NCBI RefSeq assembly: GCF_028285745.1
Contig: NZ_JANQOP010000046.1
Location: 1-64,000 of the forward strand
DNA: 64,000 nt
Source: Acaryochloris sp. IP29b_bin.137
GTDB lineage: Bacteria; Cyanobacteriota; Cyanobacteriia; Thermosynechococcales; Thermosynechococcaceae
Direction: 5' to 3'
Positions 38,100-63,479 of the stretch are shown here, in pieces (position 1 is the stretch's first letter; each line of letters begins with the position of its first letter). The notes under the pieces were generated by a model. The model was not told the origin of the DNA and searched no databases. It was given only the letters and a program-made list of their open reading frames with translations. The translations under genes were made by a program, and so were the position numbers.

Positions 38100-39581
38100 C
38101 TACGCTGGACTCGGGGCTAAAATATGCTCGTCGTAAAACTGTCGGGCAACGGTTTCGATGACGTCATAGGCCTCGACCACTACCAGTCCAGCTTTTTGTA
38201 GTTCTTTCTGCGGACAAGGTCCCACTTTCGAGGCCAACACAGCTTTGCAATCTGAAACCGTGTCGATGATGCCAGTGAGCGTGGCTTCTTCGCCATAGCC
38301 GCCCTGGCAGTAGTCCGCCACCTTCCGATGACCCACAAACTTTGCCTCGTTGGCATCCACTTCGTAAATCATGAACTCCTTGGCATGGCCGAAGTGCTGG
38401 TTAATTAGGCCCCCACCTTTGGTGGCAACGGCCACTAAAACCTTTGGAGAATCAGCAACCTTTACACTCGCCGCTGCCTGTTTTTTCGCTGCAACAGCCG
38501 CTTTATTGGCTTCAATATCCTGATGGGCCGCCTGACGGGCTTCTAGGTTGTAAGCCTCGGGCATTTCCATGAACTTCTCTTTGGTGAATTCCTGACTGCG
38601 GTCTTCACCGAGCAGACCCACGGCATCGGCACGACACTGGCGGCAGTGGCGCATCATTTTCATGTTGCCAGAACACTTATCTTGAACAGCCTTCAGTTCT
38701 TTGGGCTTCGGTCCCCGTTGGCCATTTAAGCCGAAATAGGTGCCATGCTCTGGGGCTGAAATCAGCGGCATGATGTTATGGAGAAAAGCACCGCGAGCAC
38801 GAATGGCTTGATTCACTTCCGGCATATGCTCATCATTGATGCCGGGAATGAGCACCGAGTTGACCTTGCACAGAATGTCTGCTTCTTGGAGAGCCTGCAA
38901 ACCTTCCATCTGGCGTTCATGCAGGATTTTGACTCCTTCAATCCCTCGATAGCGTTTGCGTCGATAGTGTACCCAGGGATAGATTTTCTCACCCACAGTG
39001 GGGTCCACCATATTAATGGTGATGGTGACGTGATCCACATTCAACTGTTTGATCCGATCCACATAATCGGGCAGCATCAGACCATTCGTGGAGAGACAAA
39101 GCTTGATATCCGGTGCTTTGTCAGCAATCAGTTCAAAGGTTCGGAAGGTTTTCTCGGGATTAGCCAGGGGGTCGCCGGGACCGGCAATACCCAGGACTGT
39201 CATTTGGGGAATTTTTCCGGCGACAACCAATACTTTGTGGGCGGCTTCTTCGGGGGTGAGTAACTCACTCACCACCCCAGGGCGGCTTTCATTGGCACAG
39301 TCATATTTGCGGTTGCAGTAATTACATTGGATGTTGCAGGCTGGAGCCACGGCAACATGCATACGGGCATAGTGATGGTGGGCTTCTTCGCTGTAGCAGG
39401 GATGCTTTTCAATACGAGCTTTTAGAGTTTCGCTCATGCTAGTTGAAGCATCGTTTTTGCTACTACAGCCGCAGCCACCGCCAGACGTCTTGACCGTTGT
39501 TTGGGTTTTGGTCAAGGTAATGTCCAGCTCGGGCGTCGTTGTTGGCGCAGGGGCAAGGGCAGTAGATGGCGGTGGCGTCAT
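38100..39581 (-). CDS. nifB: NifB, radical SAM FeMo-cofactor synthase
   Basis: This 493-residue protein (ATG start) has the radical SAM motif [15 protein letters not shown]. Further conserved cysteines lie in [16 protein letters not shown], and a C-terminal NifX-like domain starts at about residue 400 ([20 protein letters not shown]). It builds NifB-co, the core of FeMo-co. The frame stays open and coding-like for 35 codons upstream to a TTG at 39686, but no ribosome site supports that start. The three-box promoter lies about 400 bp upstream. Confidence 0.95.
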
Positions 39582-39906
39582 TGTTTTACGGATGTAAAGG
39601 ACAAAGTCGTCGAGGAAAAATAACGGTGTTGGATTGACGGCATCAGGTCCGTAAACACGGATGAGTTGTTCTACTAGGGCTGCCAAAGCCGGAGAACCAA
39701 GTTAGATACCTGACAATCCAACGTCCGTTTTTTCAAAGTGTGGTGCATTCTCCGAAGCATCCAATCCTTCTCATCACCAATAGATTTCCGAGAGGCAAAA
39801 GCAGTTGGTCTGTTGGCTTTCCCTTAGTAAAGCCACAGATAGAGCCTCAAGAAGGGGTATTACGCCTGAAATCGATTGAGCGAGTAATTTATTGGCTGCT
39901 CGGTGT
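39582..39906 (-). other. nifB leader
   Basis: If transcription starts near 39907, nifB has a leader of about 325 nt. Part of it (39582-39686) is open in the nifB frame and could encode an N-terminal extension ([20 protein letters not shown]). I see no riboswitch or strong hairpin here. Confidence 0.4.
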
Positions 39907-40176
39907 TGAATGAGTTATATCAATGGCTCTAGCAGTGTTGAGAAGAGCCGCCCTGATAGGTTTTATTGGATGATTAACGCTGTACTCAAATACTACAACC
40001 CTTGGCATTCAAGCAATTAATTTTTTTCCTTGATCAGGGTACAGGTATTTCCTGGTCAATCACCTAGCTTTTTGTAGTCTTTACTCTGTAATTTCTGCAC
40101 TCAGCCTAATGCTTGTACTGGTCAGCAATAAGCACTCTTTTTAAGCTCGACTCAGGGACTATTATTTAAGTACTCA
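39907..40176 (-). promoter_or_regulatory. nifB promoter with three TGAGTAC-like boxes
   Basis: On the minus strand TGAGTAC starts at 40176, TGAGTGC at 40103 and TGAGTAC at 39988, giving spacings of 73 and 115 bp. The proximal box lies in GTTGTAGTATTTGAGTACAG. Sixty-nine bases after it stands TATAAC (39919-39914), a likely -10, which puts the start near 39907. The nifP and 61-kb regions repeat this layout. From known Leptolyngbya work, CnfR acts on an element about 76 bp before the nifB and nifP starts, which fits. Confidence 0.75.
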
Positions 40177-40604
40177 AGTTCTCCTTTTTTGCTAGATTCG
40201 ATACCAATAAGAGTGCCGATATTAAGGGCTGAAAATATATCTGTATCCTTTGTGTCAAAAACGCCTATTTATTAGTATCAGATATGACAGTCCTATATTA
40301 AGTGATCTGAAGAGAACCCTAAGTTAGAGACTGTGGATCAACGTTGAATGGAAAATATTAGGAGAGTTTTCAATCAGAATGAGAGTAATCTATAATCCTA
40401 AGCTTTGTATATATAAAGCTGTACTTCGACTGATCGCCAACATCATAATGGGTAAGCCCACTTTGATATCTATCAAGCGTTAACTCAGTATTAGTACATC
40501 AACTAAGATTGTTAAGGAAGACTCAACTAATTAAATGTAATTTTGCAAGATCTGCTACATTTTTAATTCATGACTTATGTATAAAACATTCACAAAATAA
40601 ACTT
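40177..40604. other. Central part of the nifB–nifP intergenic region
   Basis: This AT-rich stretch of about 430 bp lies between the two divergent promoter arrays. I see no gene, tRNA or strong hairpin in it. Confidence 0.5.
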
Positions 40605-40876
40605 TGAGTACATAGAAAACTGCTTTAAGACCAGGTCAATTAAAAAGGCATTAATCTTATCAATAAAGGCTTTGAACTGAGTACAAAAAAACTTGTGCCC
40701 TAGGTTTAAAATACCTGCCCCTTAACGCTAAAACACCCGTCCCTTGTCCCCCAATAATTTTGAAATGCTTGGTACATCAATGTTGTAACCGTTGAGTATA
40801 AGGTTAATAGTTCTAGTAATTCTGGATTGGGCCTTCGCGATCGCAATTCAGAAACCACAATTGCTATAAGCAGAGA
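40605..40876 (+). promoter_or_regulatory. nifP promoter with three TGAGTAC-like boxes
   Basis: TGAGTAC begins at 40605 and 40678 and TGAGTAT at 40793, giving spacings of 73 and 115 bp as for nifB. The proximal box context is GTTGTAACCGTTGAGTATA. TATAAG at 40865-40870 is a likely -10, 72 bp after the box start, which puts transcription near 40876, about 20 bp before the nifP ATG. Confidence 0.75.
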
Positions 40877-40896: not shown

Positions 40897-41622
40897 ATGT
40901 CCCCCTCCCTGTCCCGCATCTCTATCCAGCCTCTCTTGCTGTGGGCAGGAGAACTTCAGTGCTCGATCTTAGAGGACTTCGCCATTATCTTTAAGCGTGA
41001 TCCAGCCGCTCGCAACTGGCTGGAGGTCCTGTGCTGTTATCCGGGGCTGCACGCCCTTGCCGCTCATCGGCTGGCCCATACGCTCCACCGTCGAGGGGTC
41101 TCTTTTTTACCTCGCTTCATTTCTCATCTCGCTCGCTTATTGACCGGGATTGAAATCCATCCTGGTGCCCAACTCGGTAAGGGCGTTTTTATTGATCACG
41201 GCATGGGGGTTGTCATTGGTGAAACCGCCATTGTTGGTGACTACACTCTTATTTATCAAGGTGTCACCTTAGGTGGCACTGGCAAGGAAACAGGCAAGCG
41301 CCACCCCACTGTAGGCAGCCGGGTGGTGGTGGGTACTGGAGCCAAGGTCCTCGGTGATATTCAAATTGGCAACCACGCCCGCATTGGAGCGAACTCTGTT
41401 GTCTTAAAAGATGTGCCGCCAGACTGCACGGCAGTTGGCATTCCCAGCCGGAATGTCTGCAAATATAACACCGCCATTCCACCTCTAGAGCATAATCGGC
41501 TCCCTGATGTAGAGGCATCGACGTTGCGGTTGCTCTTGGATCGCATCGAAACCTTAGAGAGCCAGATGCAAAATCTTACCCGCCCATCCCTTTCACCCCT
41601 GGAGTCCCATCCCCATGAATAA
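40897..41622 (+). CDS. nifP: Serine O-acetyltransferase (NifP)
   Basis: This 241-residue CysE-type enzyme has the left-handed β-helix hexapeptides ([29 protein letters not shown]) and the catalytic loop [13 protein letters not shown]. It makes O-acetylserine, the carbon partner of sulfide in cysteine synthesis. Its place at the head of a nif transcript marks it as the nif-dedicated copy (NifP), raising cysteine for NifS. No strong ribosome site is seen. Confidence 0.92.
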
Positions 41623-50121: not shown

Positions 50122-51735
50122 TCAGCATGAAATATTTAGCGTCTTTTGCAGTTGAGCCTGATCCTCAGGACTAATGCTAAATCGACCTTTTTCAATATCG
50201 CGAATCCAGCTCTGACTTTTGCCAAGACGATCAGCCAAGGCCCGTTGGCTCAGCCTTTGCGCTTGACGCGCCGCTTTCACTGCATGGCCGGAGAGTTGGC
50301 CTGACCGATTTTGGGCCGAAGTCTGCCTTTTGGAGGATCGACTCCGTTTCTTGTTCGTACGGCGACTCACCGTTTGCTGCCATATCTCCGGTAGCTCAAA
50401 CCCTAGCAGGCGCGCATTTAGGAGCCGCTGCCACTTGTCCCGTGGGGCTGCATCCGTCAGACTAAAGGACTGGTTTGCATCTTCAACCCAAAATTCCAAT
50501 GCCTCATCAACATCATCTGGAATATCACTCACCCTTGCCCACAGCGGTTGAATTTCTGAAGGATAGGTTTCTGAATCAAATATCGGTTTTAAGCCATAGT
50601 AATAAATATGTTCCAGACTATTTTCAAAGGACTTCAGAAGACGCTTATGGGCCCCTCGAACAGAGGTTGCCTCTTTTAATCGTTCATCGCCATAGGCAAT
50701 GCGAAGCAGGGTACGGACTTTTAGCCGATGATCGCCCCCCAAGCGTAGTTTAAACAATAGCCATAAGAGCAAACGGATTGCACCTGGGTGTTGTTGCCAA
50801 TGGCCCATTACTTCTGTGAGTAAGGACTGGGGCAGCGTACCATACTGGTAGAAAACGGTTTGACGACGGTAATTTTGCTTGTTGAGAAAATACTCAGCCC
50901 AACGCCCAGCTCGGACTGTAAAGCTTAAACCAATTAAATGGCGATAGCCATGAGCATCCTGTTCAAAGTAGTACTGAGTATCGAGTAGGTGCCAAATTGG
51001 ATATTCCCCGATGGAAAAGGCTTGCACTTTTCCTTGGCGGGGCCAGTCCATCGCCACCAGAATTTGGCAGGTTTGAGACACCAGCTTTTTAATTAAGGTG
51101 AGCTTCTCTAATTTGGTCAAATCTTTACGCTTATCGAGTCCTAAGTACTGCTCAATATGTTGATCGTTCAATACAAAAGTATCCTGCCAAGCACAATCAA
51201 CCGTCATTGCGTAGGCCGCAAAAATCAAATGAATACAGGTCGCGCGAATGTCGAAACATTTAAGCGCATCCATTGCCTGTTTCACTGGCATGGCAGCAGG
51301 GGAAGTATCTTCGGGATTTGCAGCCAGTCGAAATCGCATTTCTCCCAGACCTCGACGCACAGACCGACGATATTCAAGACACCCCTCAAGATCAGTTTGC
51401 CAGGGTAAGCGCTGCTGCATCGCTAAGATATTGCAGGCTTCCCAAATCACCATGGAAGAAGCAAAGGGGGTGGATTTGCCATTGAGAAAAATATCAGGAA
51501 TTGCTGCAGGCAGCAGGGTACTTTTATAGCGTCCTTTTTTGGCTTGCAGGGGAGATAAGGCCCCTACACTACAGACTTGGACACAATGGGGTATCTCAAT
51601 ATCTTGGCAACCATCGCAAAGGGTTGGATCAATCCAGTAGCCGTCTGATTCAGCTTCAGGCTTGATGGCCCCAATCGGACATTGGGGGTAGCAGTTTTCG
51701 CAAACATTACAGCTATCTTTGATGGTATAAGTCAT
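50122..51735 (-). CDS. cnfR: CnfR/PatB-type master regulator of nif genes
   Basis: This 537-residue protein has an N-terminal ferredoxin domain with two [4Fe-4S] motifs (CNVCENCYPQCPIGAI and CDGCQDIEIPHCVQVCSVGAL). A long middle part follows, then a basic stretch (TNKKRSRSSKRQ) and a C-terminal Xre-type helix-turn-helix (LSQRALADRLGKSQSWIRDI). This is the CnfR/PatB layout. CnfR switches on nif genes under low oxygen, with the clusters as the likely O2 sensor. It converges on the nifP transcript. The repeated three-box promoters in this window are its probable targets. Confidence 0.93.
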   Translation of the reverse strand: MTYTIKDSCNVCENCYPQCPIGAIKPEAESDGYWIDPTLCDGCQDIEIPHCVQVCSVGALSPLQAKKGRYKSTLLPAAIPDIFLNGKSTPFASSMVIWEACNILAMQQRLPWQTDLEGCLEYRRSVRRGLGEMRFRLAANPEDTSPAAMPVKQAMDALKCFDIRATCIHLIFAAYAMTVDCAWQDTFVLNDQHIEQYLGLDKRKDLTKLEKLTLIKKLVSQTCQILVAMDWPRQGKVQAFSIGEYPIWHLLDTQYYFEQDAHGYRHLIGLSFTVRAGRWAEYFLNKQNYRRQTVFYQYGTLPQSLLTEVMGHWQQHPGAIRLLLWLLFKLRLGGDHRLKVRTLLRIAYGDERLKEATSVRGAHKRLLKSFENSLEHIYYYGLKPIFDSETYPSEIQPLWARVSDIPDDVDEALEFWVEDANQSFSLTDAAPRDKWQRLLNARLLGFELPEIWQQTVSRRTNKKRSRSSKRQTSAQNRSGQLSGHAVKAARQAQRLSQRALADRLGKSQSWIRDIEKGRFSISPEDQAQLQKTLNISC

Positions 51736-52556: not shown

Positions 52557-53030
52557 ATGACCCCAACAACTTGTGCCTCTTGGATCTCTGGTGCCGATGT
52601 GCCTCAATCCCTGTTGGTGGCAGCTGCCCAGTCCTGGGAAGATACCCAAACCGCATCAGCTTACATTCACCAGGCTTTAGCTGAGCCAGATGTTGAACTC
52701 GATGTGCTGGTGAGTGCTTATCGCTATTTCTTTTACAAGAATGATGATCCTAGGGCGCTAGAGATGGCAGCTTTGATTTGCGATCACATCCATAAGAATG
52801 AGCATTGGCCAGACGCATGGTCTGACCTTCAACCTATCCTTCAGGAACGGCTGGATGATCCAAATGCCCGTCTCTATCTCAGCGCCTATACTGCATCGGG
52901 ACTCGTCTTGGCCCGGCTCGGTCGTCTAGAAGAGGTGCAAGTTATTGGGGAGCGAGTACTGCAAATCGAAGCCAAAGAATTTGGGGCTGAAGTGCTGTTC
53001 AGTATTCTCAATCCATCAGAGGAGGACTAA
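52557..53030 (+). CDS. TPR-like helical protein, 157 aa
   Basis: This is an all-helical protein (LLVAAAQSWEDTQTASAYIH, LVSAYRYFFYKNDDPRALEM, SGLVLARLGRLEEVQVIGER) with a TPR-like look. It is the first of a small operon whose second gene is the nitrogenase-associated ArsC-like gene, so it is probably nif-linked. The function is unknown. Confidence 0.7.
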   Translation: MTPTTCASWISGADVPQSLLVAAAQSWEDTQTASAYIHQALAEPDVELDVLVSAYRYFFYKNDDPRALEMAALICDHIHKNEHWPDAWSDLQPILQERLDDPNARLYLSAYTASGLVLARLGRLEEVQVIGERVLQIEAKEFGAEVLFSILNPSEED

Positions 53031-53034
53031 CACT

Positions 53035-53445
53035 ATGGTGAGAGTGGATTTTTACGAAAAACCCGGTTGCGCCGGAAATGCGAAACAGAAACACCTTCTA
53101 AAGAAGGCTGGGCATCAGGTAAAGGTGCATAATCTGCTGGCCGAGTCCTGGACCCAAGGCCGACTACGGCCCTTTTTTGGCGACCGCCCTGTGGCGGAAT
53201 GGTTTAACCCTACGGCTCCAGCCATCACCGCTGGGGAGGTTTGCCCCAAGCAGCTCAGCGTGGAAGCCGCTCTAGCCTTGATGGTGAAACAACCCATTTT
53301 GATCTGGCGACCCCTCATGCAGGTGTGAAAACGTTGTATTTCAGGATTTGGCTTGGCAGAAGTGGACCACTGGATTGGATTGGCATCAGATAGCGATCTG
53401 ACTCGGGATGTCCAGACCTGTATGAGTGATAGCAGTTACAGCTAG
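53035..53445 (+). pseudogene. Nitrogenase-associated ArsC-like protein, interrupted by in-frame TGA
   Basis: The frame starts at ATG 53035 behind GGAGGA. It reads VDFYEKPGCAGNAKQKHLLK and RPLMQV, then meets TGA at 53326-53328. Without leaving the frame it continues plausibly (KRCISGFGLAEVDHWIGLA) to a TAG at 53443-53445. The full span gives 136 residues, the usual size of the thioredoxin-fold nitrogenase-associated (TIGR01616, NifO-like) family; the stop leaves only 97. Family members have Gly at this point (GGA to TGA is one change). It could be a nonsense mutation, a base error or, least likely, read-through. Confidence 0.72.
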
Positions 53446-53486
53446 CCTCCTGACAAGAATGACCTTGATATTGGAGAACAAGAACG

Positions 53487-53804
53487 ATGATGACTTTAGG
53501 TTCGACGGATGCCGAAACCTTGGCCATAGAATTTTTAATGTCAGACTTAGATATCCCAGCCGTAGACCAAGATTTCTTCGCTGTACTGGCCACCCGAGAA
53601 TCAGGCAGTACCTGGTATACCGTAGAAATTGGTGTTCCGGAGTTACCGGACAAATGGGTGCTGCAGGTCTTTGATACGGGCCAGTGCGATCCTTGCTATA
53701 CCTTTATATCTCCAATGCCCAAAGGGGAAGATGCAGATCTAAAAGAATTTCCTGAACGTATTGCTGAAGTACTGGCGATGGAGCGCCAAGGTATCAGTCT
53801 CTAA
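53487..53804 (+). CDS. Hypothetical protein, 105 aa
   Basis: This acidic soluble protein (STWYTVEIGVPELPDKWVLQ, TGQCDPCYTFISPMPKGE) has a CxxC pair that could bind metal or be redox-active. The family is unknown to me. It lies 41 bp after the ArsC-like frame on the same strand, with GGAG before the double ATG. The context suggests a nif accessory role, which is inference. Confidence 0.68.
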   Translation: MMTLGSTDAETLAIEFLMSDLDIPAVDQDFFAVLATRESGSTWYTVEIGVPELPDKWVLQVFDTGQCDPCYTFISPMPKGEDADLKEFPERIAEVLAMERQGISL

Positions 53805-53830
53805 CCTCTTCCATTTCCTAGGATAAAGCC

Positions 53831-54193
53831 ATGATTGATCAAGATTTGCCCCCTGATGATTTACCACCGCGTCAGATTACAGACCGAGATATAGCGTTGC
53901 AAAAGCAGCTAGAAGATTCTATCCGCCAATGTTTTTTCTCACACTGTGAGGGTTCTACCCAGGTCCTACTCGCAGAGTGCCAATGGACAATTCGGATCCT
54001 AGAGCCCGTGACGTTGATTATCTATTGTTCGAGTCAAGCTAAAAACTGGCAGATACTCAACCATATGGTGGACTTTGCCAACCAGCTTAACCAATTTAGT
54101 CCGAGCGCTAGAATTAAAGTCTATCCGCCCGCAGGTAAAGGAGCCCCATTTGATATGCGAATTGATGAACGTTCGGCGTATCAAAGCAGTTGA
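53831..54193 (+). CDS. Hypothetical protein, 120 aa
   Basis: This protein opens with an acidic, proline-rich stretch (DQDLPPDDLPPRQITDRDI). A folded part follows (VLLAECQWTIRILEPVTLII, YCSSQAKNWQILNHMVDFAN). I do not recognise the family. It is the last gene of the small operon and follows its neighbour by 26 bp. Confidence 0.65.
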   Translation: MIDQDLPPDDLPPRQITDRDIALQKQLEDSIRQCFFSHCEGSTQVLLAECQWTIRILEPVTLIIYCSSQAKNWQILNHMVDFANQLNQFSPSARIKVYPPAGKGAPFDMRIDERSAYQSS

Positions 54194-55980: not shown

Positions 55981-56583
55981 CTATTGCCACACGTAAATCA
56001 GCATAAAGAGCACAATCCAGATCACATCGACAAAGTGCCAGAAGATAGACGTTGCCGCGACGCCAAACTCCCCCCCACTATAGTTATTGGGGATAAATGA
56101 ACGGGTCAGCATAATGCTCTGCAATAGCACCCCAGTTAAGACATGCAGGCCGTGAAAGCCCGTCAGTAAATAAAATGTGCCGCCAAACACGCCTGACTTA
56201 AAGCCAAAGGGCAAACTCATCCATTCCACAGCTTGACCATAAAGAAAGTAGCTACCCATTGCCATGGTTAACAACCAAAAGGCTCGAAATCCCCACAGAT
56301 TATCGCGATGCAAACAACGCTCGGCCAAGTAGATGATGAAGCTGCTAGAGACCAGGACAATTGTATTGATCAGGGGCTCATGGACCTCTAACCCTGCCAC
56401 ACCCGCCGGTAGCCAGTCAGTGACACTCGTTTTATAAACGGTGTAGCCCACAAAAAAGCTGATGAAGATGATGCTTTCTGATAACAGAAAGATGATGAAG
56501 CCAAACATGCGGTGGTCTTCTTCATGAGCCGTTTCCTGGATAACCTGAGCTTCGAGGGCCGGATCAAGATTCGCTGGGTTCAC
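55981..56583 (-). CDS. coxC: Terminal oxidase subunit III
   Basis: This 200-residue membrane protein has five likely helices (FIIFLLSESIIFISFFVGYT, LTGFHGLHVLTGVLLQSIML, FWHFVDVIWIVLFMLIYVW). It matches heme-copper oxidase subunit III. The start is GTG at 56583 behind AAGGAG and overlaps coxA by 20 bp. Confidence 0.92.
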   Translation of the reverse strand: MNPANLDPALEAQVIQETAHEEDHRMFGFIIFLLSESIIFISFFVGYTVYKTSVTDWLPAGVAGLEVHEPLINTIVLVSSSFIIYLAERCLHRDNLWGFRAFWLLTMAMGSYFLYGQAVEWMSLPFGFKSGVFGGTFYLLTGFHGLHVLTGVLLQSIMLTRSFIPNNYSGGEFGVAATSIFWHFVDVIWIVLFMLIYVWQ

Positions 56584-58252
56584 TGGCTAGCTCCTTCGTC
56601 GGATCGTTTGCGGTCAAAGGTTCATCGCTGCCATAACCGTAGGGAGCCGACAGGATGATCGGAATTTGTTCAAAGTTCTCATGGGGAGGCGGCGAGGCAA
56701 TCAACCATTCCAGTCCAATGGCCCGCCAGGGATTGTCCTTCGCGGTTTCACCCCGAACCCAAGAACTGAGCATATTTAAGATAAAGGGCAGGGTAGAAAC
56801 CCCTAACAGAAAGGCTCCCAGGCTTGCCAACACATTCCAGAAGGCAAACTCTGGATCGTAGGAAGCCACGCGACGGGGCATTCCTTGTAGCCCTAAGGGA
56901 TGCATCGGCAAAAAGTTGAGATTTAGGCCAATAAAGGTTAAGGCAAAGTGGAGTTTCCCCAAGCCTTCGTAATACATCCGCCCCGTCATTTTCGGAAACC
57001 AGTGGTAAATCGCTGCATAGAAGCCCATCACTACGGCCCCATTAATAACGTAGTGGAAATGGCCTACGACAAAGTAGGTATTATTGACATGAATATCAAA
57101 GGGAGCCGACGCCAACATAATCCCAGTAATTCCGGCAAATAGGAACATCGTCAGTCCCCCCAAGCCAAATAGCATCGAAGTGGTCAGGCGCAGCTTACCG
57201 CCCCAGATGGTGGCGACCCAAGCGAAGACTTTGATGCCTGTGGGCACTGAAATTGCCATGGTCGTGAACATGAACAACATCCGCATCCAGCCGGGGGTGC
57301 CGCTGGCAAACATATGATGGACCCAGACAATGCCGCTCAGTCCCGTAATGATTAGGGAGGACACCGCCACAACTTTGTAGCCAAACAGAGGTTTGCGGGC
57401 ATAGACCGGAAAAACCTCTGAAAACACGCCAAAGATGGGCAGAATAATCACGTACACCGCTGGGTGGGAATAGAACCAGAAGAAATGCTGATACAGCACC
57501 GGATCGCCACCGCGAGACGGTTCAAAGAAGCTTGTTCCCACCGTCAGATCGAGCAGCAGCATCACAGCCCCTGCTGTTAGTGCGGGTAAGCCGAAGAGCT
57601 GAATAATCTGGGCAGATAAAACGGTCCAGCAAAAGGCGGGCATTTTGAACCAGCCCATGCCGGGGGCTCGCATTCTGACAATGGTGGTGACAATATTGAC
57701 CGCTCCCATAATCGAGGACACCCCTGACAGGGCCACCGCCAACAACCAGAGGGATTGTCCATTAATCAGATTTCCCGTCGGGTTTTGTAAGCTGACAGGC
57801 GGATAGGCCCACCAGCCAGACTGGGAGGGGCCACCCGGCACAAAGAAGCTAATGATCAAGATCACGCCAAATATGGGAACCAGCCAAAACGCCACTGCGT
57901 TCAGGCGAGGAAAGGCCATATCCCGTGCCCCAATCATCAGCGGCACCAAATAGTTGGCAAGCCCATTGAGCATGGGAAAAGTCCACATAAACAGCATGAT
58001 AGTGCCATGCATGGTGAACAGACCGTTGTACACGGTGCGATCGACCAGATCAGAATCAGGGGTAATCAGTTCGCCCCGCATCACCATGGCGAGCAGCCCA
58101 CCGAACAGAAAGAAGAAGAAGGCGAGGACAATATACTGAATCCCGATCACTTTGTGATCGGTGCTGAAACTAAAAAATCTGCGCCAGTTATCGGGGGCCC
58201 CCGGTTGGGGCTGACGGCTGGGTGGCGTCAACGGCAAAGAAGCATCACTCAT
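56564..58252 (-). CDS. coxA: Terminal oxidase subunit I
   Basis: This 562-residue subunit has the heme and CuB histidines in LFTMHGTIMLFMW, FWFYSHPAVYVIILP, WVHHMFASG and VGHFHYVINGAVVMGFY. The SHPAVY region carries the His-Tyr pair of the active site. It reduces O2 to water and pumps protons. In a nif region its value would be fast O2 removal and ATP supply. Confidence 0.95.
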   Translation of the reverse strand: MSDASLPLTPPSRQPQPGAPDNWRRFFSFSTDHKVIGIQYIVLAFFFFLFGGLLAMVMRGELITPDSDLVDRTVYNGLFTMHGTIMLFMWTFPMLNGLANYLVPLMIGARDMAFPRLNAVAFWLVPIFGVILIISFFVPGGPSQSGWWAYPPVSLQNPTGNLINGQSLWLLAVALSGVSSIMGAVNIVTTIVRMRAPGMGWFKMPAFCWTVLSAQIIQLFGLPALTAGAVMLLLDLTVGTSFFEPSRGGDPVLYQHFFWFYSHPAVYVIILPIFGVFSEVFPVYARKPLFGYKVVAVSSLIITGLSGIVWVHHMFASGTPGWMRMLFMFTTMAISVPTGIKVFAWVATIWGGKLRLTTSMLFGLGGLTMFLFAGITGIMLASAPFDIHVNNTYFVVGHFHYVINGAVVMGFYAAIYHWFPKMTGRMYYEGLGKLHFALTFIGLNLNFLPMHPLGLQGMPRRVASYDPEFAFWNVLASLGAFLLGVSTLPFILNMLSSWVRGETAKDNPWRAIGLEWLIASPPPHENFEQIPIILSAPYGYGSDEPLTANDPTKELASEPSES

Positions 58253-59159
58253 GGGGGTCGTTCTCTGAACTGGCGTAATTTACAACAGGGGCTGGGGCAG
58301 GCTTCACCGTTTCCCAGCCTAAGTCAAGGGCACTTTGCGTCTCTTGATTGAATTCTTCATAGGCAACGTTCTGGGCAGCGAAGGGAGGCGTGGCTACCGC
58401 GGTCGCTAACCACTGTTGATAGTCCTCTGCAGATTCCACCACCACATCGGTCTGATTGGCAGCAAAGTAGGTGCCGCTGTACTCCGAATCTCGCAAGCGG
58501 TAGCGCCCTTTGCGGATGGGGGTAAATTCAAAGCTAATGTCTCGTCCGGGAACCACATCTTGTTTGACCCTAAAGGCGGGAATAAAAAAGCCATGCAGCA
58601 CATCCTCTGAAGACAGTAGCAGCCGTGCCCTCTGATCCACCGGCAGATGCAGCTCAGTACTGCGAATATCCGGGTCGGGATAGTGAAACTCCCAAGCCCA
58701 CTGCCGAGCATAAACGTTGATGGGGGCTGGCTCCGCTTCAGTAGGAGCAACGGATGCCGCTTCTGCCATCGGCATTCCCATCGCCATTGGCCCCATGCCG
58801 CCTAGAATCCCCATGCGATCGTAGGTTTGGTAGCTTACCGTGGCAATCCAAATCACTAACACAATGGGAATGGCAGTCCAGACCACCTCTAGCTTGACGT
58901 TGCCTTCGATGGCCGGGCCGTCGCTCGTATCGTATTTAGCGGCGCGTTGAAAGAGAACGGCGTACAGAAGTGTTCCCATCACCCCCAAAAAGATAAAGCT
59001 ACCCAGGGTGGTCATAAAGCTGAAGAGATGATCCACCAGCAGCGCCTCTGCTGACGCTTGGGGAGGCATCCAGTGGTAGGCCTGCTGACCGATCCACAGA
59101 CTGATCAGTAAATCCGCGATCGCAAGTCCCACCAAGATCAAAAGTGTACGTCGATTCAT
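58245..59159 (-). CDS. coxB: Terminal oxidase subunit II without CuA site (ARTO type)
   Basis: This 304-residue protein has two N-terminal membrane helices and a cupredoxin-like domain (HGFFIPAFRVKQDVVPGRD). In cytochrome c oxidases the CuA loop reads CSEYCGxxH. Here it is DSEYSGTYFAANQ: both cysteines and the histidine are gone. CuA is therefore absent, as in the alternative respiratory terminal oxidase (ARTO) of cyanobacteria, thought to take electrons from quinol. It overlaps coxA by eight bases. Confidence 0.92.
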   Translation of the reverse strand: MNRRTLLILVGLAIADLLISLWIGQQAYHWMPPQASAEALLVDHLFSFMTTLGSFIFLGVMGTLLYAVLFQRAAKYDTSDGPAIEGNVKLEVVWTAIPIVLVIWIATVSYQTYDRMGILGGMGPMAMGMPMAEAASVAPTEAEPAPINVYARQWAWEFHYPDPDIRSTELHLPVDQRARLLLSSEDVLHGFFIPAFRVKQDVVPGRDISFEFTPIRKGRYRLRDSEYSGTYFAANQTDVVVESAEDYQQWLATAVATPPFAAQNVAYEEFNQETQSALDLGWETVKPAPAPVVNYASSENDPHE

Positions 59160-59168
59160 AGGAGATTC

Positions 59169-59789
59169 CTAGGGTTGAACCAATAAATTGAGGGGATCAT
59201 TGGGATCCATCCCGGCCCGCAGCAAACGATCCGCACTGACATGAATGCCAAAGTCGGCTCCCAAATGAGCTCCCAAGGTTCCGTGGATAAACATCAAGGC
59301 AAAGATGCCCAGGCCCGCCAGCAAATAGCCCCATTGCACCTGGCGAACCCGATCGGACCGCCACACAAAGCGCTGAAATCCCCGCCATACCGTCATGGCC
59401 ACAATCAACCCTAGCAGCAATACACCTCCCACCCCATGCCACAGCATGGTATTCAGGGCACTCAACCCCCAAGGGCTAACCTGATCCATTGGTGGGTCTG
59501 CAAGCAGAATCTCATAGAATCCAGCAGCCACTGTAAAGAAAGTGATGATTGCTGCTGCCACCATGTTGTACCAGCCCACGTCGTACAGACTAGAGCTGGT
59601 GGCGGGAATGGCCAGGAACTTGAAAATGGGTTTTTCCAGGGGATAAAGGGTCGCAACGATGTCGAATGCGATCGCAACGATAAACAAGCCCAACGTCAGA
59701 TGAACCAAGTTGGGATGAATCGGCAGGGCATAGGGTAACCCATTCGCCCCTACGCCCAAGCTGAGAAATGCAGAACAGCCACCTATCAC
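59169..59789 (-). CDS. DUF2231 membrane protein 2
   Basis: This 206-residue protein has about five membrane helices (LPIHPNLVHLTLGLFIVAIA, LWHGVGGVLLLGLIVAMTV) and the His-containing DUF2231 pattern. The start is GTG at 59789, behind GGGGAGG, and overlaps the previous stop as GTGA. Two such proteins precede coxBAC in ARTO operons of other cyanobacteria. They may bind heme or help the oxidase; the function is unknown. Confidence 0.82.
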   Translation of the reverse strand: MIGGCSAFLSLGVGANGLPYALPIHPNLVHLTLGLFIVAIAFDIVATLYPLEKPIFKFLAIPATSSSLYDVGWYNMVAAAIITFFTVAAGFYEILLADPPMDQVSPWGLSALNTMLWHGVGGVLLLGLIVAMTVWRGFQRFVWRSDRVRQVQWGYLLAGLGIFALMFIHGTLGAHLGADFGIHVSADRLLRAGMDPNDPLNLLVQP

Positions 59790-60289
59790 TGCAATAGACC
59801 TCCCCGCATGGCTTCGACAACGGCTTCGGTATGTAAACCGTAGACCCACACCAGCTTATCCCCCAAATAAATCTGAAAAAGGACAATGAACGTTAAGATC
59901 ACATTGCCTCCGATATAAGGTAATGGAAGAACCTCTGGGGCACGCAAACGAATGGTGTAGCGCCACCCAGTAATAAGTGCCAGAAGGCCAGAAAGCGCCC
60001 AGCCAATGAGCGTATGCAAGCTTAGATCCCGAGTGGCAGCAGCATAGGGCATGGCCAATCCTGCCTCAATTTGCCCAAAAATCACCGCAATAAAAACCGA
60101 AATTGTTGCAAACATCAAATTCCACCAGCCCACCTCATATAAGCGGGAATTTCGAGTGAAATATCCAACTCCATCACAAAGAACAGCGAATAGAACCATC
60201 GCGATCACAAAATGCACCACGATGGGATGAAGGGTGTCGGGATAGGGCAGGTTATGGCTATTGAGCGGTGGCAATAAATCCTGGAACAT
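59786..60289 (-). CDS. DUF2231 membrane protein 1
   Basis: This 167-residue protein has four membrane helices and the motif LHPIVVHFVIAMVLFAVL near the start, with a conserved His pattern (LSLHTLIGWALSGLLALITG). It is the first gene of the cox operon and is translationally coupled to the second DUF2231 gene. Confidence 0.82.
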   Translation of the reverse strand: MFQDLLPPLNSHNLPYPDTLHPIVVHFVIAMVLFAVLCDGVGYFTRNSRLYEVGWWNLMFATISVFIAVIFGQIEAGLAMPYAAATRDLSLHTLIGWALSGLLALITGWRYTIRLRAPEVLPLPYIGGNVILTFIVLFQIYLGDKLVWVYGLHTEAVVEAMRGGLLQ

Positions 60290-60923: not shown

Positions 60924-61190
60924 TGAGTACTCAAGCAATGGAACTTTTTTAGAGTGCTATTCGAGTTGATCTCTTACAGACCCATTCATTGTGCTGAGTA
61001 CATGAATTAGCAGACTGAAGTAGAAAAATACTCGTCCACAGGGTTAACAATACTAGTCCATTCGTCCCCAAAATATATTTTCCCCAGAACACCTCTCGGT
61101 TGTAGCGCTTGAGTACAGCGCTAATGATCCAATAAACCCTATCGAAACATCATTGAATGGCCCAGAAGGAGTCTTTGCTATAAAACGTCC
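60924..61190 (+). promoter_or_regulatory. Third nif-type three-box promoter, without a nif gene
   Basis: TGAGTAC begins at 60924, 60995 and 61110, giving spacings of 71 and 115 bp, matching the nifB and nifP arrays. The proximal context GTTGTAGCGCTTGAGTACAG and the following CGCTAATGATCCAATAAA align closely with the nifB copy over about 45 bp. TATAAA at 61179-61184 is exactly 69 bp after the proximal box, as at nifB. The first box is a palindrome (TTGAGTACTCAA), so it might also serve the cox side. Confidence 0.7.
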
Positions 61191-61700
61191 AATGCTAAAC
61201 ACTCAATCTTCAAGACTCGGCTCAACTCGTTGAAATCAACGGAACACAACACCAGCTTTAGCTCAGTTAGAGCAAATTTACCCTTTGGATGCTTTGTCTT
61301 CCTGATTTCAACGTTTTAGTAATGCATGATTACGATCTCAGATGTCCTCAACTGTTTTGGGTGATCCTCATTCCCACTTACGGGATAAACGAGCACATCC
61401 ACCATCAGAACGCTTAGAGATCGATCCCTGCTACCGTGAGATTATTTTTGGGTTGCAATGGCATCGAACGTTTTGACAGGCGTTGCATTAACCGTTCAAT
61501 ATCCAACCAGTTTCTGGGGTTGATTCCGCTCTGCTTTGTACAACTTGCCTGTATTAACTGGTTTGAAAGGTTAGTGCAATGCGCCGTCTTTCTCCTTTAC
61601 CTTTAGATTCCCTAACGTCAAGAATGAATTTGTGTATTCTGCAATTTATCCAAGATTAAGGGAAAAACCAGCTGCTATCTATTTTTCGAGGTCAATCAAT
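61191..61700 (+). other. Region after the third nif-type promoter, no intact gene
   Basis: These 510 bp have only broken frames. One reads TTPALAQLEQIYPLDALSS before a stop, and another, from ATG 61344, reads MSSTVLGDPHSHLRDKRAHP and ends after 44 codons. They may be remnants of a lost gene or a long leader. I cannot assign them to a family. Confidence 0.4.
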
Positions 61701-62075
61701 ATGCGGGAGATCCTTAATATAGGGGTTAGGTCCAGCAGTATTTTCCGTTTAATAATACGCTGGTGGACCCAGTGGAGCCGTATTGCCGATGGCCAATGGA
61801 CACAACCCTCCATTCCTATCCACCGTCAGGTACAAAATGGATGGATAGATTTCTTCCTAGGTGATAGTCAAGATAGCCAATGTCATCGATTGTTGGACAG
61901 CCAGTCGAGGGTGGGGCTGCATTATAGAAAGTCAGATCTAGAGGCCATTTTTTGGATGGATTGTCCGTCTGCAGAAATTCCTGATCGTTTATGGCGACAA
62001 CTACAAGAACAATATGTCAGGTGGTATTCCAAATATTCTCGTTTTTCTAGTTACTCAAGGATATTTACGAAGTAA
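61701..62075 (+). CDS. Hypothetical basic protein, 124 aa
   Basis: The start at ATG 61701 (MREILNIGVRSS) is preferred to a longer frame from 61632. The protein is rich in W, R and Q (RWWTQWSRIADGQW, HYRKSDLEAIFWMDCPS) and has no recognised domain. It is the first intact frame after the third nif-type promoter, about 510 bp from the predicted start of transcription. Confidence 0.55.
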   Translation: MREILNIGVRSSSIFRLIIRWWTQWSRIADGQWTQPSIPIHRQVQNGWIDFFLGDSQDSQCHRLLDSQSRVGLHYRKSDLEAIFWMDCPSAEIPDRLWRQLQEQYVRWYSKYSRFSSYSRIFTK

Positions 62076-62243: not shown

Positions 62244-63479
62244 ATGCATGACTCAGAATTAACAGTGTTCACACGACCTGCTGAGCAGGGAAGATGGCTA
62301 CTCATCCCTATAGGAACAAGCGTTTTACTTTGTTTAGGGACCGTTTATTCCTGGAGCATCTTTAGAACCCCCTTAGAAACCGAACTTAATCTTAGTGCCA
62401 CCGAAAGCCTCTTTCCCTATACAGTTGCCTTGGTTTTCTATGCGGCATTTATGCCGATTTCAGGTTTTTATATTCCTTGCATTGGTCCCCGCATCACAAT
62501 GGCCATAGGGGGACTGATAGTTGGTTTGGGCTATATCCTCGCCAGTTTTGCCACGAATATAGGGATGATCATCCTTACCTATGGTGTCATGGCTGGGACT
62601 GGCGTTGGCATTGCCTATGGGGTACCGATGGTTGTGGTTGCTCGTTGGTTTCCTGACAAAAAAGGATTGGCAGTGGGATTGACCATTATCGGGTTTGGGC
62701 TCTCTCCTCTGATCACTGCGCCTGTAGCAAACCACCTTATTGGGGTCTACTCCGTTAGACCCACGCTACGAATGCTAGGCCTTATATTTATGATGATCAT
62801 TCTGGGAATTGCCACTGTCCTGAAATTACCGCCGCGAAACTGGCAGCCTCGTCAGATGTCTGTGGCTACGACCGTCCCTGATCTTCGCTCCTACCCAAAA
62901 CATCTACTCAAAAGTCAATCTTTTTATGGGCTGTGGAGTTGCTATGCGATCGGTACCCTGATCGGATTAAGTGCTATTGGTATCTCGGGGCCAGTGGGGG
63001 AAGAGATTATCAAGATCGATCCGGGGATGGCCGCTGGTAGCGTTTCTTTATTTGCCCTCTTTAATGGTGTGAGTCGTCCCTTGTTTGGCTGGCTCAGTGA
63101 TCGCTTTAAACCCTGCTATGTTGCGATCACATCCTATGTTTTAGTCCTGATTGCCTGCGTTCTGATGATCCATGCTCAACCAGGACAAGTGGTCACCTAT
63201 CTCATTGCCTTTTGTCTGTTTTGGTTTTGTCTAGGCGGTTGGTTAGCGATAGCTCCGATCACCACCCTTCGTTTTTTCAACCCTGAACAGTATGCTCAAA
63301 ATTACGGAATTGTGTTTACAGCCTATGGCGTCGGTGCTTTGGCCGGAACGTTGGTGACTGGACGAATTCGCGATTGGCTGGGTTCGTATACCTATGCCTT
63401 CTATCCAATGGCCCTGCTTGCCATTGTTGGTATTGTCGTTGCAAGTACCCTGCTGAAGCGTGAGCGATCTCTGGTCTGA
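62244..63479 (+). CDS. MFS transporter, oxalate/formate-antiporter-like
   Basis: This 411-residue protein has twelve predicted membrane helices and the OFA-type start (LCLGTVYSWSIFRTPLE). The loop motif GWLSDRFKPCYV and YGVMAGTGVGIAYGVPMVVV follow. Members move organic acids such as oxalate and formate, but the substrate cannot be read from sequence. It lies 168 bp after the small hypothetical gene on the same strand and could share its transcript. Confidence 0.88.
   Translation: MHDSELTVFTRPAEQGRWLLIPIGTSVLLCLGTVYSWSIFRTPLETELNLSATESLFPYTVALVFYAAFMPISGFYIPCIGPRITMAIGGLIVGLGYILASFATNIGMIILTYGVMAGTGVGIAYGVPMVVVARWFPDKKGLAVGLTIIGFGLSPLITAPVANHLIGVYSVRPTLRMLGLIFMMIILGIATVLKLPPRNWQPRQMSVATTVPDLRSYPKHLLKSQSFYGLWSCYAIGTLIGLSAIGISGPVGEEIIKIDPGMAAGSVSLFALFNGVSRPLFGWLSDRFKPCYVAITSYVLVLIACVLMIHAQPGQVVTYLIAFCLFWFCLGGWLAIAPITTLRFFNPEQYAQNYGIVFTAYGVGALAGTLVTGRIRDWLGSYTYAFYPMALLAIVGIVVASTLLKRERSLV

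Follow-up and report, generated by a model that had tools for sequence, protein, structure and literature searches.

Three-box arrays with whole-turn spacings upstream of nifB and nifP, and a third array with no nifB behind it, in an Acaryochloris nif cluster

CnfR has been described as the master switch of cyanobacterial nitrogen fixation and has been used for nitrogenase expression in other hosts; the same source states that it recognises motifs I to IX and that transcription from nifB and nifP is divergent (PMC5943405). PMC8510180 reports three conserved elements, thought to bind CnfR, at nifB1 and nifB2 of Anabaena variabilis and at nifB of Leptolyngbya boryana; about 50% of nifB1 transcription was lost without either of the first two sites, and 75% without both. 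A conserved TGAGTATA motif with an extended -10 is marked upstream of nifB1 and nifB2 in PMC4284476 (Figure 11 legend). The L. boryana nifB/nifP cis-element (Tsujimoto et al. 2016, as cited in PMC5943405 and PMC8510180) resembles the present locus in its divergent promoters, its activator and its multiple motifs (I to IX) upstream of the starts. The A. variabilis sites CS1, CS2 and CS3 at nifB1 and nifB2 likewise number three, with TGAGTATA and an extended -10, and there depend on CnfR1 or CnfR2 (PMC8510180, PMC4284476). In those papers the A. variabilis element is described for nifB, whereas here an array was also found before nifP, along with a third copy that lacks nifB. Nostocales nifB arrays differ in the distance from box 2 to box 3, which at 124-129 bp is one turn longer than the 115 bp measured here. 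A three-box nif control element is already known, and the arrays in this cluster are a further example; the view in the preliminary description that three boxes went beyond the known element was overstated, as PMC8510180 already gives three nifB sites and PMC5943405 motifs I to IX.

The window, a stretch of 64,000 nucleotides, was found to hold a cyanobacterial nif cluster that includes nifB, nifP and cnfR, with cnfR encoded in the same genome as the arrays (Table 1). In the four nearest genomes, CnfR-like proteins share 61-70% identity with the CnfR encoded here. When the sequence was re-examined, the six box positions and the spacings of 73 and 115 bp first described for both nifB and nifP were recovered unchanged, as were the context GTTGTAnnnnTTGAGTAyA at both proximal boxes and a TATAAN hexamer 69 or 72 bp past the proximal box (TATAAC at 39919, TATAAG at 40865). 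Four of the six boxes are exact TGAGTAC, the exceptions starting at 40103 (TGAGTGC) and 40793 (TGAGTAT). All three boxes of each array share one polarity of the TGAGTAC type, and a putative TGnTATAAN extended -10 follows the sites of the nifB, nifP and third arrays, 69-72 bp past box 3. The two main arrays stand upstream of nifB and nifP, and the third stands upstream of neither. No Rfam match was found around the promoters or the third-array leader.

Table 1. Features of the three arrays and of the genes around them, in window coordinates.
Feature	Position	Strand	Detail
nifB	38100..39686	minus	up to 86% identical to NifB of sampled genomes
nifB promoter, putative extended -10	39914..39919	minus	TATAAC in TGATATAAC; starts 39919, 69 bp from box 3
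nifB array, TAAT	39973..39976	minus	conserved; +12 from box 3, then AATAA
nifB array, box 3	39982..39988	minus	TGAGTAC; 115 bp from box 2; context GTTGTAGTATTTGAGTACA
nifB array, region of 22-bp-spaced AAATACYnGTnCCC motifs after box 2	40035..40092	minus	one good copy AAATACCTGTACCC, others degenerate
nifB array, box 2	40097..40103	minus	TGAGTGC; 73 bp from box 1
nifB array, box 1	40170..40176	minus	TGAGTAC; near-palindrome TTGAGTACTTAA
nifP array, box 1	40605..40611	plus	TGAGTAC
nifP array, box 2	40678..40684	plus	TGAGTAC; 73 bp from box 1
nifP array, three AAAyACnnGTnCCC-like motifs	40689..40746	plus	+11, +33, +55 from box 2; 22 bp apart
nifP array, box 3	40793..40799	plus	TGAGTAT; 115 bp from box 2; context GTTGTAACCGTTGAGTATA
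nifP array, TAAT	40805..40808	plus	conserved; +12 from box 3
nifP promoter, putative extended -10	40865..40870	plus	TATAAG in TGCTATAAG; 72 bp from box 3
nifP, nif-linked serine O-acetyltransferase	40897..41622	plus	TIGR01172, 249.6 bits vs cut-off 210.65
cnfR, presumed activator	50122..51735	minus	N-terminal 4Fe-4S motifs, C-terminal helix-turn-helix
cytochrome oxidase genes	near 55981-60289		
third array, box 1	60924..60930	plus	within full palindrome TTGAGTACTCAA
third array, box 2	60995..61001	plus	TGAGTAC; 71 bp from box 1
third array, box 3	61110..61116	plus	TGAGTAC; 115 bp from box 2; context GTTGTAGCGCTTGAGTACA
third array, leader	61117..61590	plus	resembles nifB leaders of Phormidesmis, Nodosilinea, Leptolyngbya relatives
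third array, TAAT	61122..61125	plus	+12 from box 3, then AATAA
third array, putative extended -10	61179..61184	plus	TATAAA in TGCTATAAA; 69 bp from box 3

Exact TGAGTAC occurs 15 times in the window against 4.2 expected, and none of 100 shuffles held as many. With a motif model built from relatives only, the window being left out, the nifP array scored 102 bits, the nifB array 76 and the third array 65, and the best remaining place in the window scored -63 bits. A search of the whole 5.5 Mb genome for three spaced boxes returned the nifB, nifP and third arrays plus one off-spacing chance match. A single-box scan of the genome was uninformative, its 73 matches being approximately equal in number to those of the reversed pattern. 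The three arrays are far beyond chance. What the preliminary description had observed was confirmed, and its interpretation as a whole was partly supported.

The sample for the distribution across the phylum consisted of 386 genomes, 68 with nifB and 318 without. A strict pattern, requiring TAAT at +12 in addition to the three boxes, matched 51 of the 386, all among the 68 nifB-positive genomes and none among the 318 others, and the reversed pattern matched none. A slightly looser pattern matched 57 of the 68, with one reversed-pattern match in all. The region upstream of each nifB was also taken from the 68 genomes without a spacing filter; three-box arrays were present before most of the genes, with a second, oppositely directed array in many. 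Conservation in relatives had been proposed as a check, and all three boxes with their spacing were found to be kept, the two distal boxes included. Among 84,980 named species, at least 114 loci were found, all cyanobacterial except one among the matches listed. That exception (L292, labelled Patescibacteria) has an off-pattern spacing of 81/123 and is consistent with chance, since about one chance match was estimated for a scan of this size. Two genomes, G008 and G306, contain low-complexity TGAGTGC runs that were discounted as chance matches. A CnfR homologue was detected in all 56 of the 68 nifB-positive genomes that were tested, and partial CnfR matches were seen in two nifB-negative genomes. 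No canonical array was found in some nifB-positive genomes that carry cnfR (e.g. G014, G080, G091, G332 and G177).

Nearly all arrays precede nifB, nifP or one further operon, the last conserved in Nostocales. In that order (L140-L156, L158) the operon encodes a small membrane protein, short unknown proteins, a luciferase-like protein and an LPPDDLPP protein; it lies approximately 9-15 kb from cnfR in several genomes, and its box 2 to box 3 distance is very rigid (115-117 bp in 45 arrays). Five proteins of this operon gave no match when compared with Pfam. In the window, the ORFs at 53487-53804 and 53831-54193 beside cnfR are, by eye, likely homologues of its short proteins, and a nitrogenase-associated ArsC-like protein (TIGR01616) is also encoded near cnfR in the region 52557-54193, a stretch that carries no array. 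At L165 (genome G305) the array is followed by a small ORF whose usual place elsewhere is after nifP, which would look like loss of nifP with retention of its promoter.

Aligned by their boxes, the arrays resolve into three rigid blocks, A, B and C, within which spacing varies by hardly a base. Block A consists of box 1, the only box that is palindromic, and that in some arrays only. Block B takes in box 2 itself (TGAGTACA), a TT lying 6-7 bp ahead of it and AAATACTnGTnCCC motifs at +11, +33 and +55; 152 of 160 neighbouring pairs of these motifs were exactly 22 bp apart. Block C comprises GG..TT ahead of box 3, box 3 itself, TAAT at +12, AATAA near +22 and, at +69 to +72, the best -10 hexamer, and the GTTGTAnnnnTTGAGTAyA context is the local form of its start. 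TAAT at +12 was present in 97 of 108 arrays (47/48 with a short and 50/60 with a long distance between boxes 2 and 3), and in all but one of the 108 the -10 lay at +69 to +72 from box 3, regardless of spacing class. The earlier account of the arrays was correct but incomplete: it mentioned neither the third array, nor TAAT at +12 from box 3, nor the 22-bp series. The CnfR-responsive cis-element of L. boryana reportedly lies about 76 bp upstream of the start, a position that presumably corresponds to box 3 here. As judged from sequence, the arrays fit such a CnfR-responsive element, as had been suggested.

At 10.5 bp per DNA turn, distances of 73, 115 and 22 bp amount to approximately 7, 11 and 2 turns. 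Distances between TGAGTRC pairs in the unfiltered nifB regions fell into two shorter classes, 70-75 and 83-84 bp, and two longer ones, 113-117 and 125-129 bp; the ranges 76-82 and 118-124 bp were empty. In 104 non-redundant arrays, a set partly gathered with patterns that admitted about 67-85 and 111-131 bp and informative within those limits (beyond them only the unfiltered nifB set is), box 1 to box 2 measured 70-75 (95 arrays), 80-84 (8) or 61 bp (1), and box 2 to box 3 measured 112-120 (74) or 125-129 bp (30). Blocks A and B are thus separated by about 7 turns and blocks B and C by 11 or 12, evolutionary change being almost only by one turn; in aligned examples the extra turn sits between the last 22-bp motif and box 3, outside the blocks. 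On the gene trees, the box 2 to box 3 class changed at least four times for nifP and at least twice for nifB, and the box 1 to box 2 class three times and once, respectively; these approximately ten independent one-turn steps were counted on quick single-protein trees, some on weakly supported branches, and the starred branches alone force two changes in each of the nifP and nifB trees. A period scan on the spacings gave a broad optimum, and the argument for phase is carried instead by the gap in the distribution and by the steps on the trees.

It is very improbable that the spacing was simply inherited with no functional constraint. The nifB and nifP clusters have a common origin, and close genera share exact spacing, but the classes have switched several times, each by about one turn, where pure inheritance would also drift by half-turns. 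In the window arrays, moreover, poorly conserved columns are 33-41% identical against 68-82% for strongly conserved ones. We infer that whole-turn spacing reflects selection for helical phase, an idea raised in the preliminary description and strengthened by the one-turn variants.

Our main reading, held at a probability of roughly 0.7, is that the divergent nifB and nifP operons are activated through these arrays, as CnfR-responsive elements built of three rigid blocks on which CnfR would assemble in phase, the third array being a copy without nifB. At low oxygen, CnfR would bind the boxes along a single DNA face; molecules bound there would touch each other in a loop, a wrap or an oligomer, and the complex would recruit RNA polymerase at the extended -10 promoter. 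The single polarity of the arrays, in which only box 1 can be palindromic, is a point against this model, and many helix-turn-helix proteins of CnfR's type bind palindromes. The nifB-positive genomes that have cnfR but show no canonical array also speak against it. The model is favoured because array presence tracks nitrogen fixation, the spacings fall into whole-turn classes, the blocks are rigid and the loss of sites has published effects (PMC8510180). An arrangement in which only box 3 with its TAAT and AATAA, near -80, is a CnfR site, and boxes 1 and 2 serve another DNA-binding or DNA-bending protein that helps indirectly, is unlikely. It would suit the locking of block C to the -10, where blocks A and B are shifted by whole turns, and also the 22-bp motifs after box 2, which differ in sequence from the boxes, so that more than one protein may take part. 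Boxes 1 and 2 nevertheless share the TGAGTACA core, the orientation and the degree of conservation of box 3, and in PMC8510180 the loss of a single site gives a partial, additive loss of activity. The CnfR assembly reading can tentatively be widened, at odds well short of even, to a nif promoter that is a modular, helically phased scaffold: block separations would be whole turns, the 22-bp series would form a second binding surface, CnfR would act only as a one-face, multi-site assembly, and the nifB-less copy would extend this control to a gene or RNA outside nif.

The third array also carries GTTGTAgcgcTTGAGTACA, and the approximately 480 bp past it are like a nifB leader, including a segment like AACGTCAACTTTGGCTCAGTTAGAGC that is missing from the window's own nifB leader. 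No nifB coding sequence was found downstream. Compared with the nifB array, its weak columns were 40% identical and its strongly conserved columns 82%, so that it is not a recent copy and its motifs were probably kept by selection. It would represent a second nifB-type promoter with its motifs retained and the nifB gene absent. Candidate targets are the ORF at 61632-62075, the transporter gene at 62244-63479 or a short RNA. The ORF matched no Pfam or NCBIfam family and gave a weak 40% match over 70 residues in one other genome. The transporter, an MFS gene downstream of the array, scored above the NCBIfam cut-off for L-lactate transporters (NF049980); it was not named as the target, its homologues not being tied to nif arrays.

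The chance that the third array drives nothing, as the decaying remnant of a nifB promoter that was duplicated or displaced, falls just below even. Its leader matches the nifB leaders of relatives, and no nifB lies behind it; no clear gene lies in 61180-61630, the next ORF has no family match, and the MFS gene, whose homologues were not seen beside nif arrays, is more than 1 kb from the promoter. Against a relic, the boxes, TAAT, AATAA and -10 are intact in a background whose weak columns have diverged, which suggests that the array is still used.

An AACGTCAACTyTGGCTCAGTTAGAGC-like segment is common to the third-array leader and the nifB leaders of relatives and could form a hairpin; in Nodosilinea both sides of the stem differ, with GCCC/GGGC in place of GCTC/GAGC. 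This segment is part of about 100 bp that are missing from the nifB leader of the window itself. A structured leader RNA is possible.

The whole-turn classes, the 22-bp AAATACTnGTnCCC series and the nifB-less copy were not found described in a literature search whose reach stopped short of the primary element papers, and they may still be known; a search for TGAGTAC returned unrelated matches only. If CnfR promoters need whole-turn spacing, designers of such promoters would have a simple rule to follow, and CnfR assembly could be tested directly. The strict pattern, with 0/318 nifB-less genomes matched, is also usable as a marker of CnfR targets.
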